Shown here: positions 28,987 to 40,850 of the stretch, piece by piece
How positions within the stretch are numbered: position 1 is the stretch's first letter
How the letters are laid out: the number at the start of each line of letters is the position of its first letter
The notes under the pieces: generated by a model
The model's input: only the letters and a program-made list of their open reading frames with translations
Databases searched by the model: none
What the model was told of the DNA's origin: nothing
Translations under genes and position numbers: made by a program
From: Phycisphaerae bacterium
GTDB taxonomy: Bacteria > Planctomycetota > Phycisphaerae > Tepidisphaerales > Tepidisphaeraceae
Direction: 5' to 3'
DNA: 58,240 nt
NCBI GenBank assembly: GCA_025924315.1
Contig: JAICIO010000030.1
Coordinates: 1 to 58,240 of the forward strand

Positions 28987-30447
28987 CTATCTCGCTTCCC
29001 CGAGAAGAGGCAGTTGCACTTTGACACTGCGGTCCGCGCCGTCATCGAGACCGGGCGCCGATCCGATGAACTGCTTATCGATCTTCTTCACATTCCGCGT
29101 TCGCGCATTCGGATTCGGGACGAGGTCGGGTGAATCCATGCCGTCGTGGCGCTTCAGCACGTTGTAGTACTGATCGCGCTGCGCGGGGATCCAACCCGCG
29201 TCGCGAATCAATCGGCAGATTTCTCTTGCTTCGAGGCGATAGGTGGTGCCGGCGGCGCTGACGACGTTTTCTTCCATCATCACGCTGCCCATGTCGTTGG
29301 CGCCGAAGAACAGCGCCAGCTGGCCGATCTTCGGGCCCATCGTTACCCAGCTGCTCTGAAGGTTGGGAATGTTGTCTAAAAATAGACGCGAAATCGCAAG
29401 CGTGCGGAGATACTCGTCCGCCCCAGCCATCCGCACGACGCGGCCGCGGAGGATGTCGTCGTTGGTTGACTCGTCAAACGGGCCATAGACGTTCGGGTCC
29501 CATTCCTTTGCGCGCCCGAGCGGCGTGTTCTCGCGCTGGAAAGGCCAATGGATGAAAGCGGTATAGCAACCGAGCGACGAAGCGACGGAGCGACGAAGCG
29601 ACGAAGGGTGAGGGGGAAGCGATTTGGCGAAAACGCCAGGCCATCGGGCCATCACGCGACGAATCACGACGTCGGAATCTTTCCCTCCGTCGCTTCGTCG
29701 CTTCGTCGCTTCGTCGCTTAGCGCGTGTGCATAATCCTGCATGTCCCGCAGCGCCGACATATGCTCGATCCGTTCACGAACGAACTCAATATGCCCGATC
29801 AGCATCGTGCAGCTCGTGTTCATTCCCTCTTCGTGCGCGACGCGCATCACACGAAGCCAGTCGTCGCCCGTGCATTTGCCCAAGCCGATCCTTTTCCTCA
29901 CGCGCGGTGAGAAAATTTCCCCGCCGCCGCCGGGGATTGTCTGCAAACCAGCCGCGCGGAATCTTCGTATGATTTCGCGCACGTCGAGGTTGAAGAATCG
30001 CTCAAATTCGACAAACTCCGGGGGGCTGAAGGCGTGGATGTGAACGGTGGGGAAGTTCGTTCGGATGTAACGCAACAAACCTTCGTACCACTCGATCGGC
30101 AGGCGGTCGTTCATCCCGCCTTGCATGAGGATCTGCGTGCCGTTGATCGCGACGAGCTCGCGGATTTTCTCGCCGATCTTGTCGTACTCCAGCGTGTAGG
30201 CGTCGGCGTCTTCATGATCGCGGCGGAAGGCGCAAAACGTGCACTTGGCGGTGCAGACGTTGGTGTAGTTGATGTTGCGATCGATAACGTACGTGCGGTA
30301 ATCCTCTGGGTGCATCCGCTGGGTCACAGCACTCGCCCACGAGCCGAGATCGTGCAGCGAGGCGTTGTGGTGAAGTTCCAGCGCCTGCTCGTCGGTGAGG
30401 CGCGACTTGCCGGTGATAATGTCGTCGATGTTGAAAGAGAGCTTCAT
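28987..30447 (-). CDS. mqnC: Dehypoxanthine futalosine cyclase (menaquinone biosynthesis) with in-frame repeat insertion
   Basis: Radical SAM enzyme of the futalosine route to menaquinone, converting dehypoxanthine futalosine to cyclic dehypoxanthine futalosine. The cluster motif CTAKCTFC follows DRNINYTNV. The C-terminal half, SSWVTMGPKIGQLALFFGANDMGSVMMEENVVSAAG, is diagnostic of MqnC rather than MqnE. At 486 residues it is longer than the usual ~370: about 49 residues between RDMQDYAH and CYTAFIHWPF come from an inserted palindromic element (29573..29720), and ~40 extra residues form the C-terminus. Other mqn genes are not adjacent. Confidence 0.9.
   Translation of the reverse strand: MKLSFNIDDIITGKSRLTDEQALELHHNASLHDLGSWASAVTQRMHPEDYRTYVIDRNINYTNVCTAKCTFCAFRRDHEDADAYTLEYDKIGEKIRELVAINGTQILMQGGMNDRLPIEWYEGLLRYIRTNFPTVHIHAFSPPEFVEFERFFNLDVREIIRRFRAAGLQTIPGGGGEIFSPRVRKRIGLGKCTGDDWLRVMRVAHEEGMNTSCTMLIGHIEFVRERIEHMSALRDMQDYAHALSDEATKRRSDGGKDSDVVIRRVMARWPGVFAKSLPPHPSSLRRSVASSLGCYTAFIHWPFQRENTPLGRAKEWDPNVYGPFDESTNDDILRGRVVRMAGADEYLRTLAISRLFLDNIPNLQSSWVTMGPKIGQLALFFGANDMGSVMMEENVVSAAGTTYRLEAREICRLIRDAGWIPAQRDQYYNVLKRHDGMDSPDLVPNPNARTRNVKKIDKQFIGSAPGLDDGADRSVKVQLPLLGEAR
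29573..29720. repeat. Palindromic element inserted in frame within mqnC
   Basis: The left arm (29573-29609) consists of GCGACGAA/GCGACGGA units, and the right arm (29684-29720) is its inverted counterpart (GTCGCTTC units). The arms match over ~35 bases around a 74-base core. Within mqnC it is read as SDEATKRRSDGG through HPSSLRRSVASS with no stop codon, which keeps the frame. Confidence 0.8.
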
Positions 30448-37130: not shown

Positions 37131-38909
37131 TCATGGTTTCATAAACGGGTTCGTAAACGAGTTTCGGATCGACGGCAGGTCACTCTTCATCCGTCTAAAG
37201 CCGTCCGCGTAGTCGATGCTGTCGAGCGAGCCGTCGGATTTGAAAAACCAGCGGCTGATTTCTCCGCTGCCGTTCACTTCGACATCCATGCACCGCAGCG
37301 GCTTTGCATCGGGTTGTCCGGAATGTGCGACATCGCTCGACGGCGTGATGATCAGCTGCATCAGGGAACTCGTCGCCGCGCCTTCGTAGCCGGGAAATGT
37401 GTCGGTTTCGAGAATCATGGGCTTTTCCGGCAGCTTGCCGACGAGCAAGCCGGCCCATCCGCCGGGCAGATAAATCGGCGACGGATCGATGCTTTCCTTG
37501 CTCTCCACATCCGTTCCAGAGGCGCTCAGCTCAATCTTGCCGTTGCGGATCGTCGCCGACAGGCGCAGGTGCGACGTCTCATCGCCATGCGGCTCGAACA
37601 GTTTCCGCTGGACCGAGCAGGCATAGTCGTTCAGCTTTTCGTTGCCTTCCCACTGGTTGAGCACCGATGAATTGCCGCGTTCGGGAAACGTGAACCGCGA
37701 TTCGTTCGACTGCCGCCACACGCCGGGCACCGGCTCTTCATGCAGCCATCCGATCGGATGGTCGGGCGAGACGTAGCAATAGAGCCACCAGCGTTCGGGC
37801 CGAACGTCGCCGAGGAAATTGTTCAGGCCATGTTCTTTGATCTGCGAAACGATCTTCGCGCCGGCGTCGAGTCGCGGCTGAAGATCACTCGACTGCGGGA
37901 ATTTCGTGCCGTCGCCCAGTGCCTTCCACATCGGCTCGATCCAGCTGTCGTCGGAGCCGCTGCCTTCGAAGATCGCCATCAACCCGTGGCCCTGCGGATC
38001 GCCCATCACATAAATCTGGCTGACGGCGTAATCGCTCCACGCTTCGTTCGCGCGCTCGACGCGCCAGCGCCGCGGGCCGAGCAGTTTCGTTTGCGAAAGT
38101 CTCCAATCCGTGTCCCACGCGCTGCAGAGCGTCGCGATGTCGGATGGATCGTCGTTCGGCAGCAGCGTTACTGGAACCAGCGTCACGCCGCGCCACAGAT
38201 TTGCCCCGACGCTTTGCATGCGGATCTCGCGGCTGCTGCGATTCGGATCCTCTGGCGTTATCCCCACCCATCCGTCCGGCACATCAATCGTCGTGCCGCC
38301 GCGCAGGTGCAGGCCCTCGTCGCTCAGCTTCGGCTCGCCGTGGGCTTCGATTGTCGCGGCGATGCGCTTCACGAGATCTTCGTCGAGCTGCGAAGGCGTG
38401 GCGGCGCCAACGATCTGTACCGAGATTGCGTGCCCCGAAGGAAGCACGGTCGCTGCCGCGACGATCTGCACTTCAACCGCATCGCCGGAACCTTCCTGAT
38501 CATCCGAAAAACTCAGCGTCGCACGTGCAATTGAACCAGGCGTCCCCGCGATCATCAGCGGCTCGATCTTCAGCTCCGTCGTCTTGCCGAACGATCGCGC
38601 CAGATACTGCGCCGGCGAGACGAACTCCGGATGCAGTTCGCGGATCACCTGCAGTGTGCGGCGCAGGACAGGGTCCTGCAGCTGAAAAAGAATCGGCGAA
38701 TCCGCGTCGCTCTTTTTCGATGTCCAACCTTCCGGCAATTGAATCGTGAGATTGCGCTTCGTCTGCGGCTTACCAAGTTTTACCTCGAGCGACTTGCGGC
38801 GCTGATGATCCACAAGCCCCGCGGCGCCAACCATCGCAGCCAGCACGCCCCACATCACCGCCTGCATGAGGTAATAGCGCCACCGCGGGTACTGCCACGC
38901 CTTTGCCAT
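37131..38909 (-). CDS. Membrane-anchored protein of unknown function
   Basis: 592 residues. One N-terminal membrane segment (YYLMQAVMWGVLAAMVGAAGLVD) is followed by a large soluble part containing two similar sections that start with a beta-type segment: LTIQLPEGWTSKKSD near residue 54 and TTIDVPDGWVGITPED near residue 205. The repeat suggests two copies of a PsbP/DUF1795-like fold, judged only from the pattern. It converges with the membrane protein and is divergent from the ligase gene. Function unknown. Confidence 0.75.
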   Translation of the reverse strand: MAKAWQYPRWRYYLMQAVMWGVLAAMVGAAGLVDHQRRKSLEVKLGKPQTKRNLTIQLPEGWTSKKSDADSPILFQLQDPVLRRTLQVIRELHPEFVSPAQYLARSFGKTTELKIEPLMIAGTPGSIARATLSFSDDQEGSGDAVEVQIVAAATVLPSGHAISVQIVGAATPSQLDEDLVKRIAATIEAHGEPKLSDEGLHLRGGTTIDVPDGWVGITPEDPNRSSREIRMQSVGANLWRGVTLVPVTLLPNDDPSDIATLCSAWDTDWRLSQTKLLGPRRWRVERANEAWSDYAVSQIYVMGDPQGHGLMAIFEGSGSDDSWIEPMWKALGDGTKFPQSSDLQPRLDAGAKIVSQIKEHGLNNFLGDVRPERWWLYCYVSPDHPIGWLHEEPVPGVWRQSNESRFTFPERGNSSVLNQWEGNEKLNDYACSVQRKLFEPHGDETSHLRLSATIRNGKIELSASGTDVESKESIDPSPIYLPGGWAGLLVGKLPEKPMILETDTFPGYEGAATSSLMQLIITPSSDVAHSGQPDAKPLRCMDVEVNGSGEISRWFFKSDGSLDSIDYADGFRRMKSDLPSIRNSFTNPFMKP

Positions 38910-38999
38910 GATCCAAGCGTACCGAAATTGCCCATTTCACGCACGTTTCGTCGAACTTTCGGCGCAGATGCGCCGGCGGTCGCGCGCCTAAAATCCAAC

Positions 39000-40850
39000 G
39001 TGAGCCAAGCGACCCTTCTCGACTTTGCAAACGCCAACGATCAGGCCGCGGCGACGACGAAAAAGCTTCAGAAGCAAGCGATCCTCGCGAATTACTTCAA
39101 GACCATCGACGACGACTCCGACCTGGCGCTCACAATCCGCTACGCGGGCGGTCGGGCGTTCTCGCCGACGGACGAGCGCGTGCTCGGCGCCAGCGGCGCG
39201 ATTGTGAGCGATGTCGTCATGGGCATCCTCCGCACGGATTGGCATCGCTTCCGTGAACAGATGATTAAGAGCGGTGAGATGGGCGAGGCGCTGGCGATTT
39301 TCTGGCCGGAGCGCGCGATTCGCGCAAGCGAATCCGAGCCAGCGGTAACGTTGAAGGATCTCGCGAAGGCGTTCGACGATCTCGCATCAACCGGGAACCA
39401 GGAGAACAAGAAGGAGATCCTCGGCCGCCTCTTCCTTCGCTGTCGCGACCCACGTGAGGCGGCGTATCTGACGAAGATTATTTTCAGCGATTTACGCACC
39501 GGCGTGCGCGAAGGCGTGCTCCAGGCCGCCGTTGCGGAGGCGTTCGAAAAGCCTCTTGCGCAAGTCCAGCGATGTCAGCTGCTCGTCGGCGATCTCGACG
39601 AAGTCGCCAAGCTCGCCAGGCACGACCAACTCTGCGACGCGACGTTCAAGCTGTTTCACCCGATCCAGTTCATGCTCGCGACGCCGAAAGAGAACGCGAA
39701 CGAATTGGCGGAGGTCTTTGAAGGCCGAACGTTCTACGCGGAGGACAAGCTCGACGGCATTCGCGCGCAGGTGCATAAGTCCGGCGACCGCATCGCCATC
39801 TACACGCGAACGCTCGACCGAATCGACGAAAGTTTTCCCGACGTCGTCGCGAAGCTGTCGAAATTGCCCGGCGAATTCCTGCTCGATGGTGAAATCGTTC
39901 CCTGGCGCGATGGGCGCGTGTTGCCGTTCGCGCATATTCAACGAAGACTCGGGCGAAAGGTGCTGACAAAGAAGATCTTGAGCGAGAATCCATGTGAGTT
40001 CATCGCGTTCGACATTCTCTATCGCGATGGGGAATTGCTGATGGAAAAGCCGCTGGAGGAAAGACGCCGCGCTCTCGCGCAACTCTCGATCCCCTCTCCC
40101 TACGAGGGAGAGGGTAAGGGTGAGGGTGGAGCGTCAGAGTCGAAGGGCGCTGGTTCGCGAAACAAGGCGTCGAATACCTCCGCGCCCGACCCTCACCCTA
40201 ACCCTCTCCCTTCCGGGGAGAGGGGAGAAGGATTGCTGAAGACGACGGTAACCAAAGTTTCCAACGCGATCGACATCGAAGGCGCGTTCAATATCGCCCG
40301 CTCCTGCCGCAACGAAGGGCTCGTCCTGAAAGATCCGCAGTCCATTTATTCCCCCGGCCGTCGCGGGCAGATGTGGTTTAAACTCAAGACGTATCTCCCG
40401 ACGTTCGATTGCGTCGTGACTGCCGCCGAGTTTGGGCACGGCAAGCGGCGTGGGACTTTGAGCGATTACACGTTTGCGGTGTGGAATAGCGACGATCTCG
40501 TGAACGTCGGCAAAGCCTACAGCGGCGTGACGGACGAGGAGATCGCCCAGCTCACGGAGTTATTTCTCAAACTGTCTCGCGGCGACAACGGCCACGTTCA
40601 CGTCGTCGAGCCGAAGGTCGTTCTCGAAATTGCCTGCGACCAGATCCAGAAATCCGAACGGCACGCGAGCGGATATGCCCTTCGCTTCCCGCGGATCAAG
40701 CGCATTCGCTGGGATAAATCGCCCGCCGACGCGGATCACCTCGAGCGGATCGTCGAAATCTACGAAAGCGCCCACAACTTCGCGAAATGCGAAGGGGTGG
40801 AAGAAGCTTCGCCGGCGCCCGAACCAACGCTGTTCGATCATCTCACTTAA
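39000..40850 (+). CDS. ATP-dependent DNA ligase (LigB/archaeal type) with in-frame repeat insertion
   Basis: 616 residues from GTG 39000; no ATG exists nearby in frame. The N-terminal DNA-binding domain is residues ~1-210, and the adenylation domain contains the nucleotide Lys in AEDKLDGIRA. Later motifs are FLLDGEIVPW, CEFIAFDILY, EGLVLKDPQSIYSPGRRGQMWFKLK, and a C-terminal OB domain follows. It seals nicks using ATP. About 45 residues between RRALAQLS and LLKTTVTKV derive from a palindromic element (40089..40233) placed between nucleotidyltransferase motifs. Confidence 0.92.
   Translation: MSQATLLDFANANDQAAATTKKLQKQAILANYFKTIDDDSDLALTIRYAGGRAFSPTDERVLGASGAIVSDVVMGILRTDWHRFREQMIKSGEMGEALAIFWPERAIRASESEPAVTLKDLAKAFDDLASTGNQENKKEILGRLFLRCRDPREAAYLTKIIFSDLRTGVREGVLQAAVAEAFEKPLAQVQRCQLLVGDLDEVAKLARHDQLCDATFKLFHPIQFMLATPKENANELAEVFEGRTFYAEDKLDGIRAQVHKSGDRIAIYTRTLDRIDESFPDVVAKLSKLPGEFLLDGEIVPWRDGRVLPFAHIQRRLGRKVLTKKILSENPCEFIAFDILYRDGELLMEKPLEERRRALAQLSIPSPYEGEGKGEGGASESKGAGSRNKASNTSAPDPHPNPLPSGERGEGLLKTTVTKVSNAIDIEGAFNIARSCRNEGLVLKDPQSIYSPGRRGQMWFKLKTYLPTFDCVVTAAEFGHGKRRGTLSDYTFAVWNSDDLVNVGKAYSGVTDEEIAQLTELFLKLSRGDNGHVHVVEPKVVLEIACDQIQKSERHASGYALRFPRIKRIRWDKSPADADHLERIVEIYESAHNFAKCEGVEEASPAPEPTLFDHLT
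40089..40233. repeat. Palindromic element inserted in frame within the DNA ligase
   Basis: CCCCTCTCCCTACGAGGGAG + AGGGTAAGGGTGAGGGT (40091-40127) is inverted against ACCCTCACCCTAACCCTCTC + CCTTCCGGGGAGAGGGG (40189-40225). It is read as PSPYEGEGKGEGG ... PHPNPLPSGERGEG, the peptide form of a repeat that is widespread in bacterial genomes. The reading frame is preserved across it. Confidence 0.85.

Follow-up and report, generated by a model that had tools for sequence, protein, structure and literature searches.

Inverted short-tandem-repeat arms in two variable linkers of a planctomycete mqnC gene and around S23 genes

The palindromic feature in mqnC is, in our view, probably a pair of inverted 8-bp tandem arrays lying in two hypervariable linkers, on either side of a native segment (RWPGVFxKS) of a family-specific protein loop, with the frame read through both arrays; it would be a member of a class of hairpins, built of inverted short tandem repeats (ISTR), that are dispersed in genomes. 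Both in the source genome and elsewhere among bacteria, hairpins of this kind surround S23 genes, lie empty in intergenic DNA or occupy linkers of protein genes.

Materials and Methods

The window is the whole stretch of DNA that was analysed (58,240 nt). G000 designates its source genome, other G-numbers the genomes of relatives, L-numbers loci and C-numbers contigs. The MqnC alignment covered 15 genera of the source genome's family; the sixteenth, G006, was fragmentary and was left out. The left mqnC linker was compared with the inverted right linker, the 99% level of cross-genus pairings being a score of 31. Inverted arrays of 6–10-bp units were sampled in 458 kb of G000 (7% of the genome), consisting of the window and 20 further stretches.

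Two sets of S23 loci were used: the family/class set held 33 of 92 matches (the better-scoring ones and all 5 of G000), and the named set, from many phyla, held the best 80 of 583 loci, with n = 79 since L161 was too short for the arm test. Inverted-arm scores at S23 loci were compared with those at 2000 control positions and, as a second control, with cross-locus pairing of arms. Arms were called periodic if their 7/8-bp self-match was at least 0.6.

Results and Discussion

The mqnC gene and its arms

The features of the gene, by position in the window, are:

28987..30447, minus strand: mqnC (cyclic dehypoxanthinyl futalosine synthase), 486 aa, intact frame; from ORF and profile match
29569..29727, minus strand: entire family-specific MqnC loop, residues 241-293; from comparison with relatives
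29573..29608, minus strand: 3' arm (mqnC strand), inverted copy of the array, translated SSLRRSVASSLG; from repeat and tandem analysis
29620..29667, minus strand: native core of the family-specific loop, VIRRVMARWPGVFAKS; coordinates counted from residue numbers
29683..29718, minus strand: 5' arm (mqnC strand), GCGACGAA tandem array, translated SDEATKRRSDGG; from repeat and tandem analysis

A preliminary description had placed here a palindromic element inserted in frame in mqnC. It named the gene correctly (the product matches the MqnC equivalog TIGR03699 with 436.1 bits, cut-off 428.1, in two stretches), the frame is indeed open throughout, and the arms lie within two bases of where it put them. 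They are 36 nt each, 94% complementary, spaced by 74 nt, and each consists of tandem copies of the octamer GCGACGAA. The repeat core has 7 matches in the window against 0.16 expected, a count reached in 0 of 100 shuffles; the RNA of the palindrome folds with −100 kcal/mol (z −9.8). There are zero stops across all six frames of (GCGACGAA)n, and since 8 has no common factor with 3, a single array is translated in each of the three frames in turn.

A second functional mqnC, which the same description had named as a finding that would speak against it, did not appear: of the other MqnC-like matches in the genome one, on C1, is a paralogue with 34% identity and one is a fragment at a contig edge. 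In an alignment of MqnC to MqnE 6xi9 the loop fell within an unaligned stretch (query residues 239 to 344), and AlphaFold run on the single MqnC sequence, with no alignment, gave a pLDDT of 36.5, too low to be of use.

The window holds a second in-frame palindrome, at 40094-40222 on the plus strand (translated SPYEGEGKGEGG ... PHPNPLPSGERGEG), within an ATP-dependent DNA ligase ORF at 38535-40847.

A conserved core between variable linkers

A loop bounded by QDY and YTAFIHWPF (or a close variant) is present in each of the 15 family proteins that could be read. Its central part, ...RWPGVFAKS... or a variant of this (RWPGVFxKS), is conserved and coincides with the middle of the supposed element; seven of the 15 genera have the loop without any tandem repeats. 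By this alignment, the core VIRRVMARWPGVFAKS is native to the family and only the two variable linkers carry arrays. Since the core is native, the 148 bp are not one inserted unit, and the claim of a ∼148-bp element that interrupts MqnC and adds ∼49 residues was not confirmed; what stands is an in-frame palindrome in a variable loop. Relatives having the same residues but no repeat, the outcome that had been named as adverse to an insertion, do exist for the core; they do not exist for the arms. The segment from QDY to Y measures 60 aa in G000 versus 45–57 aa in the 7 repeat-free genera, so the arms occupy both linkers more than they lengthen them.

In the relatives read from outside the family the loop is absent. 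The corresponding stretch reads QDETGGFVAFICWTF and QDSGGGFLSFIAWPF in two outside relatives, with no loop, and the search matches of four others (G027, G028, G029 and G032) skip it. Other families of the class have a few residues at this position, and only against these is the entire loop extra. This absence of the loop, core included, favours a different history, in which a complete palindromic mobile element (arms and core, resembling a Rickettsia palindromic element, RPE, or a MITE) entered mqnC a single time, in the ancestor of the family; its core would then have been recruited into the protein, and in most genera its arms would have degenerated or given way to others. Inverted arrays of one motif were found in five of the 15 genera, and they represent four motif types: GCGACGAA-type in G000 and G005, GATTGCC in G010, GGACTGA in G001 and AAGGATG in G008. 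The same core flanked by four motif types is not what the decay of one ancestral element would give.

The inverted left–right linker score exceeded the 99% cross-genus level in exactly those five genera. Both linkers of G003 and G004 carry tandem arrays, with motifs that are different and do not match, and G014 has an array in the left linker only; pairing of the arms is therefore not obligatory. Unpaired and mismatched arrays are what one would see under ordinary microsatellite growth in two unconstrained linkers, where the inverted match arises by chance or as a by-product of motifs common in the genome. The motif of G010 is in fact dispersed (GATTGC-type heptamer arrays gave 59 pattern hits genome-wide, with 0 for the reversed control), and both linkers could thus draw on one genomic pool. 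Still, microsatellite growth would have to yield, in five genera, a match that is inverted and exceeds the 99% level of cross-genus pairings; it would also have to account for arms that change their unit together at the dnaE2 site and for the same arrangement, with locus-specific motifs, at S23 loci (both described below). We regard it as quite unlikely.

The mqnC motif of G008 is dispersed as well (9 pattern hits). In G010 and G008 no listed S23 match adjoins the mqnC motif, as far as coordinates compared by eye can tell, and S23 is thus not needed nearby; an S23 locus having the same motif as the mqnC arms is present in G000 and G005 (GCGACGAA) and in G001 (GGACTGA). Between G000 and G005 the mqnC arms (identity 41/45 and 37/44) are more alike than the core (39/58) or the upstream coding DNA (230/300).

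Further copies in the source genome

The expectation that the repeat would recur in the genome was borne out. Arms of GCGACGAA occur at four further sites of G000, one of them inside metH. The metH copy lies in frame in the variable stretch that links the homocysteine domain to the pterin domain, and the frame is open through its arms; G005 has a diverged version of the arms in this linker, and most family members have neither version. Apparent extra inserts in metH of G005 turned out to be runs of X (unresolved bases) and were dropped. The copy on C102 has its arms in an intergenic gap. On C125 the arms enclose a 121-aa ORF, inside dnaE2, that matches PF05635 (23S-rRNA-intervening-sequence protein S23) with 115.9 bits. 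At the start of C195 (L058 1-114) an arm lies directly against the start codon of hisF; on its far side a diverged core resembling that of mqnC, VIARVWKRWPGVFEKSL, continues past the contig end.

A search of the genome with the 148 bp returned only arm-sized matches at other sites, and the bodies between the arms differ among the complete copies. The complete mobile element considered above could claim that G000 and G005 have arms in the same three genes (mqnC, metH and dnaE2), and that C195 joins an arm to an mqnC-like core upstream of hisF. The latter arrangement is 73 bp from the contig end, across a repeat of ∼40 bp, and may be either an assembly artefact or another copy of this core; the cores in the metH, C102 and dnaE2 copies, for their part, are unrelated to that of mqnC. 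On balance, a single insertion of arms and core together seems rather unlikely.

Such palindromes had been thought to be seldom noted in planctomycetes, which understates their number: 18 inverted tandem-array pairs were found in the 458-kb sample of G000, window included, and at 6 of the 18 the frame stayed open 90 bp past both ends. The motif AGAAGCC was common to one S23 locus on C4 and two pairs without S23 on C7.

One of the six open-frame pairs, an in-frame inverted pair of GGGTTCA, lies in a leucyl aminopeptidase gene (L243 2649-4364, minus strand) just before the VGKSITFDSGG stretch.

Arms around S23 genes

Inverted arms proved frequent at S23 loci. In the family/class set the arm score was above the maximum of the 2000 control positions at 32 of 33 loci (median 44 versus 18). 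In the named set (best 80 of 583, n = 79) it passed the control 99% level at 57 loci and the control maximum at 13; 22 loci stayed below the 99% level, with nothing visible in Bowmanella, Faecalibacter and Methanophagales. Against cross-locus pairing, a locus's own score was above the 95% level in 32/33 and 64/79 cases and above the 99% level in 21/33 and 54/79. Arms taken from different loci score much lower when paired, so that the arm motif is largely specific to the locus.

Inverted flanks alone are not special to S23, because Y1-transposase loci have them too (14 of 19, non-tandem). One could therefore think of REP-like hairpins moved by a Y1 (RAYT) transposase; Y1 transposase matches were present in 8 of the 9 genomes searched, 10 of them in G000. 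The structure of the arms tells the two apart: a clear 7/8-bp periodicity was seen in 28/32 S23 arms of the family/class set and in 44/57 of the named set versus 0/14 at Y1 loci, and the arms studied here are thus not like those at Y1 transposase genes. Mobilization by RAYT is highly improbable. The 5' arm of S23 genes was purine-rich in 26/32 and 48/57 cases.

Arms that change together at the dnaE2 site

A linker of dnaE2 carries an S23 gene in G000, G005 and G013 (the last a one-contig genome), and the same linker also contains S23 in L160 (Planctomycetota) and L161 (Phycisphaerales), two contigs from named MAGs. Among the S23 proteins of G000, G005 and G013, 85, 80 and 70 of 121 residues are shared; the three cases are related and not independent events. 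The units of the arms at this site are:

G000: GCGACG, 4 left and 4 right
G005: GCGACG, 4 left and 4 right
G013: GGCACG, 4 left and 4 right
L160: GAGACG, 6 left and 6 right

Both arms differ together between genomes while the enclosed S23 gene is the same. Stray units are one GAGACG in the left arm of G005 and one GCGACG in the right arm of L160. Seven other genomes have short or unrelated linkers at the site; G003 has another repeat-like linker and G014 a repeat-like run; the site was unreadable in G010, G011 and G012.

Relation to known elements

RPE, as a review on MITEs describes them, are palindromes of ∼150 bp, located in frame in genes, whose families have a shared body and encoded peptide (PMC10969869). 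The feature in mqnC is likewise a palindromic stretch of ∼150 bp, in frame in an unrelated metabolic gene and repeated in the genome, and the frames of both mqnC and metH are open through the arms. Unlike in RPE, only the 8-bp tandem arms are common to the copies; their bodies differ, and that of mqnC is native host sequence. With no common body among the copies the feature is, by these comparisons, not an RPE, and it is better described as a read-through, concertedly evolving inverted-repeat hairpin that is RPE-like in effect.

In intervening sequences (IVS) of 23S rRNA, e.g. of Coxiella, complementary borders form a stem with an S23 ORF inside, and S23/IVS proteins are said there to have no known function (PMC4990558). 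The C125 copy in dnaE2 agrees with this plan (∼450 bp, complementary borders forming a stem, S23 ORF inside), and complementary stem borders were found for the mqnC arms and the S23 loci in general. In contrast to IVS, the host is a protein gene with an open frame rather than an rRNA gene, the arms are short-tandem arrays, and the mqnC copy has no S23 ORF (the dnaE2 copy with the same arm motif has one); moreover, excision by RNase III at mqnC would cut an mRNA. We classified the mqnC feature as a variant of short-tandem-repeat hairpins, neither RPE nor IVS.

Head-to-tail units of 7–8 bp dispersed in the genome, as in STRR and heptamer arrays, are present. Vioque in 1997 reportedly described a cyanobacterial STRR inside a functional RNA gene. 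Two Xanthomonas genomes contain 70 and 75 pairs of arrays of the heptamer GGGAATC in convergent (inverted) orientation; they have one motif and are mostly intergenic (89% and 93%) (PMC4692102). The inverted pairing of short-tandem arrays is shared, while here several motifs occur and they lie within genes too. The main text of that paper lacks the word ‘intervening’, and its passages show no link to S23 or IVS, nor do they describe units changing in concert at a given site or arrays transparent to a host frame (PMC4692102).

S23 and Avd, a protein of diversity-generating retroelements (DGR), are described as homologous four-helix bundles (PMC10053308). The S23 gene scored 32.4 bits against bAvd, below the cut-off of 40, with a weak match to NF033474. 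Unlike in DGR systems, no DGR reverse transcriptase was found in G000, and as its single RVT_1 match is retron-like, a DGR source of the arms was set aside.

RPE, IVS with S23 and inverted heptamer arrays in Xanthomonas are thus each already known from these sources (PMC10969869, PMC4990558, PMC4692102). Titles, abstract beginnings and passages of the open-licence literature yielded no report tying S23 genes to inverted short-tandem arrays, and none of a joint arm difference or of a host frame open through S23.

A possible mechanism

We suggest that the arms act as one unit by hairpin pairing in single-stranded DNA. Slippage would add or remove units; with the arms paired, template switching would copy the units of one into the other, so that anything in between, be it native codons, an S23 gene or a few bases, would be kept. 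Pairing, slippage and template switching together would explain the inverted orientation, the locus-specific units, the joint difference of the arms and the indifference to the enclosed sequence. As the array has no stop in any frame and 8 is not a multiple of 3, it could expand within a coding linker provided that its overall length is suitable; arms would persist in genes only at tolerant linker sites and with a stop-free array. The weakest step is a possible role of S23, as a relative of Avd, in creating or spreading the arms. Neither an insertion event nor an excision or a template switch was seen.

Should this be so, repeat DNA would have a route for adding sequence to protein loops with the gene unbroken. 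The frequent wrapping of S23 genes by inverted 7–8-bp arrays, with a locus-specific unit and both arms changing together, also offers a concrete, testable handle on S23.

S23 genes nested in open host frames

The S23 genes in dnaE2 and, as described below, in pglX provide naturally occurring examples of one gene lying within another gene's open frame. In three genera (G000, G005 and G013) the dnaE2 frame is open through S23 as its +2 frame, and shuffling of synonymous codons in the three S23 genes kept it open in 1.0%, 0.35% and 4.4% of cases. At third positions where T would form a stop in the host frame, T was found at 0/52 in these three genes versus 59/197 elsewhere in them (P = 1e-7) and versus 108/623 in 31 other S23 genes (P = 8e-5). 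The three genera diverge most at the third codon position of S23 (0.55-0.60), which indicates that protein selection acts on the S23 frame; of the host frame only openness seems to be required.

A scan of 113 S23 loci for an open host frame gave seven: G000, G005, L160, L161, L083, L195 and L166. In L195 (Clostridia MAG CALXBD010000146.1) S23 is nested, with short 7-bp inverted arms, in an open frame of the BREX-1 methyltransferase gene pglX, which is matched in two stretches; that host frame was open in 0.5% of shuffles, and the one of L160 in 0.8%. L166 has S23 in an N6_N4 DNA methylase gene, with a Pfam match on one side only. The open +2 frames of L166 (11% of shuffles) and L161 (32%; the contig ends ∼35 bp past S23) are not surprising by the shuffle test. 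L083 was not counted as a host gene, its frame through S23 being open but in a low-complexity context.

One could go further and take S23 genes and the inverted short-tandem arrays around them for one bacterial system, in which the Avd-like S23 would drive the making, spreading and homogenizing of paired arrays. The IVS of 23S rRNA would be only its ribosomal form, protein genes (dnaE2, BREX pglX, the DNA methylase) would be colonized by translation-transparent, dual-coding inserts, and the mqnC arms would be a trace devoid of S23. We put this forward tentatively, as a possibility we would not bet on.

The dnaE2 region of G005 (L158) shows more pairs of this kind. On the reverse strand of contig C66, just upstream of dnaE2, a 691-aa ORF, which from its resemblance may be ImuB-like, contains several in-frame ARRHGGTEARRH / CLRASVP pairs, and in dnaE2 itself another GCGACGAA pair encloses what looks like native sequence.
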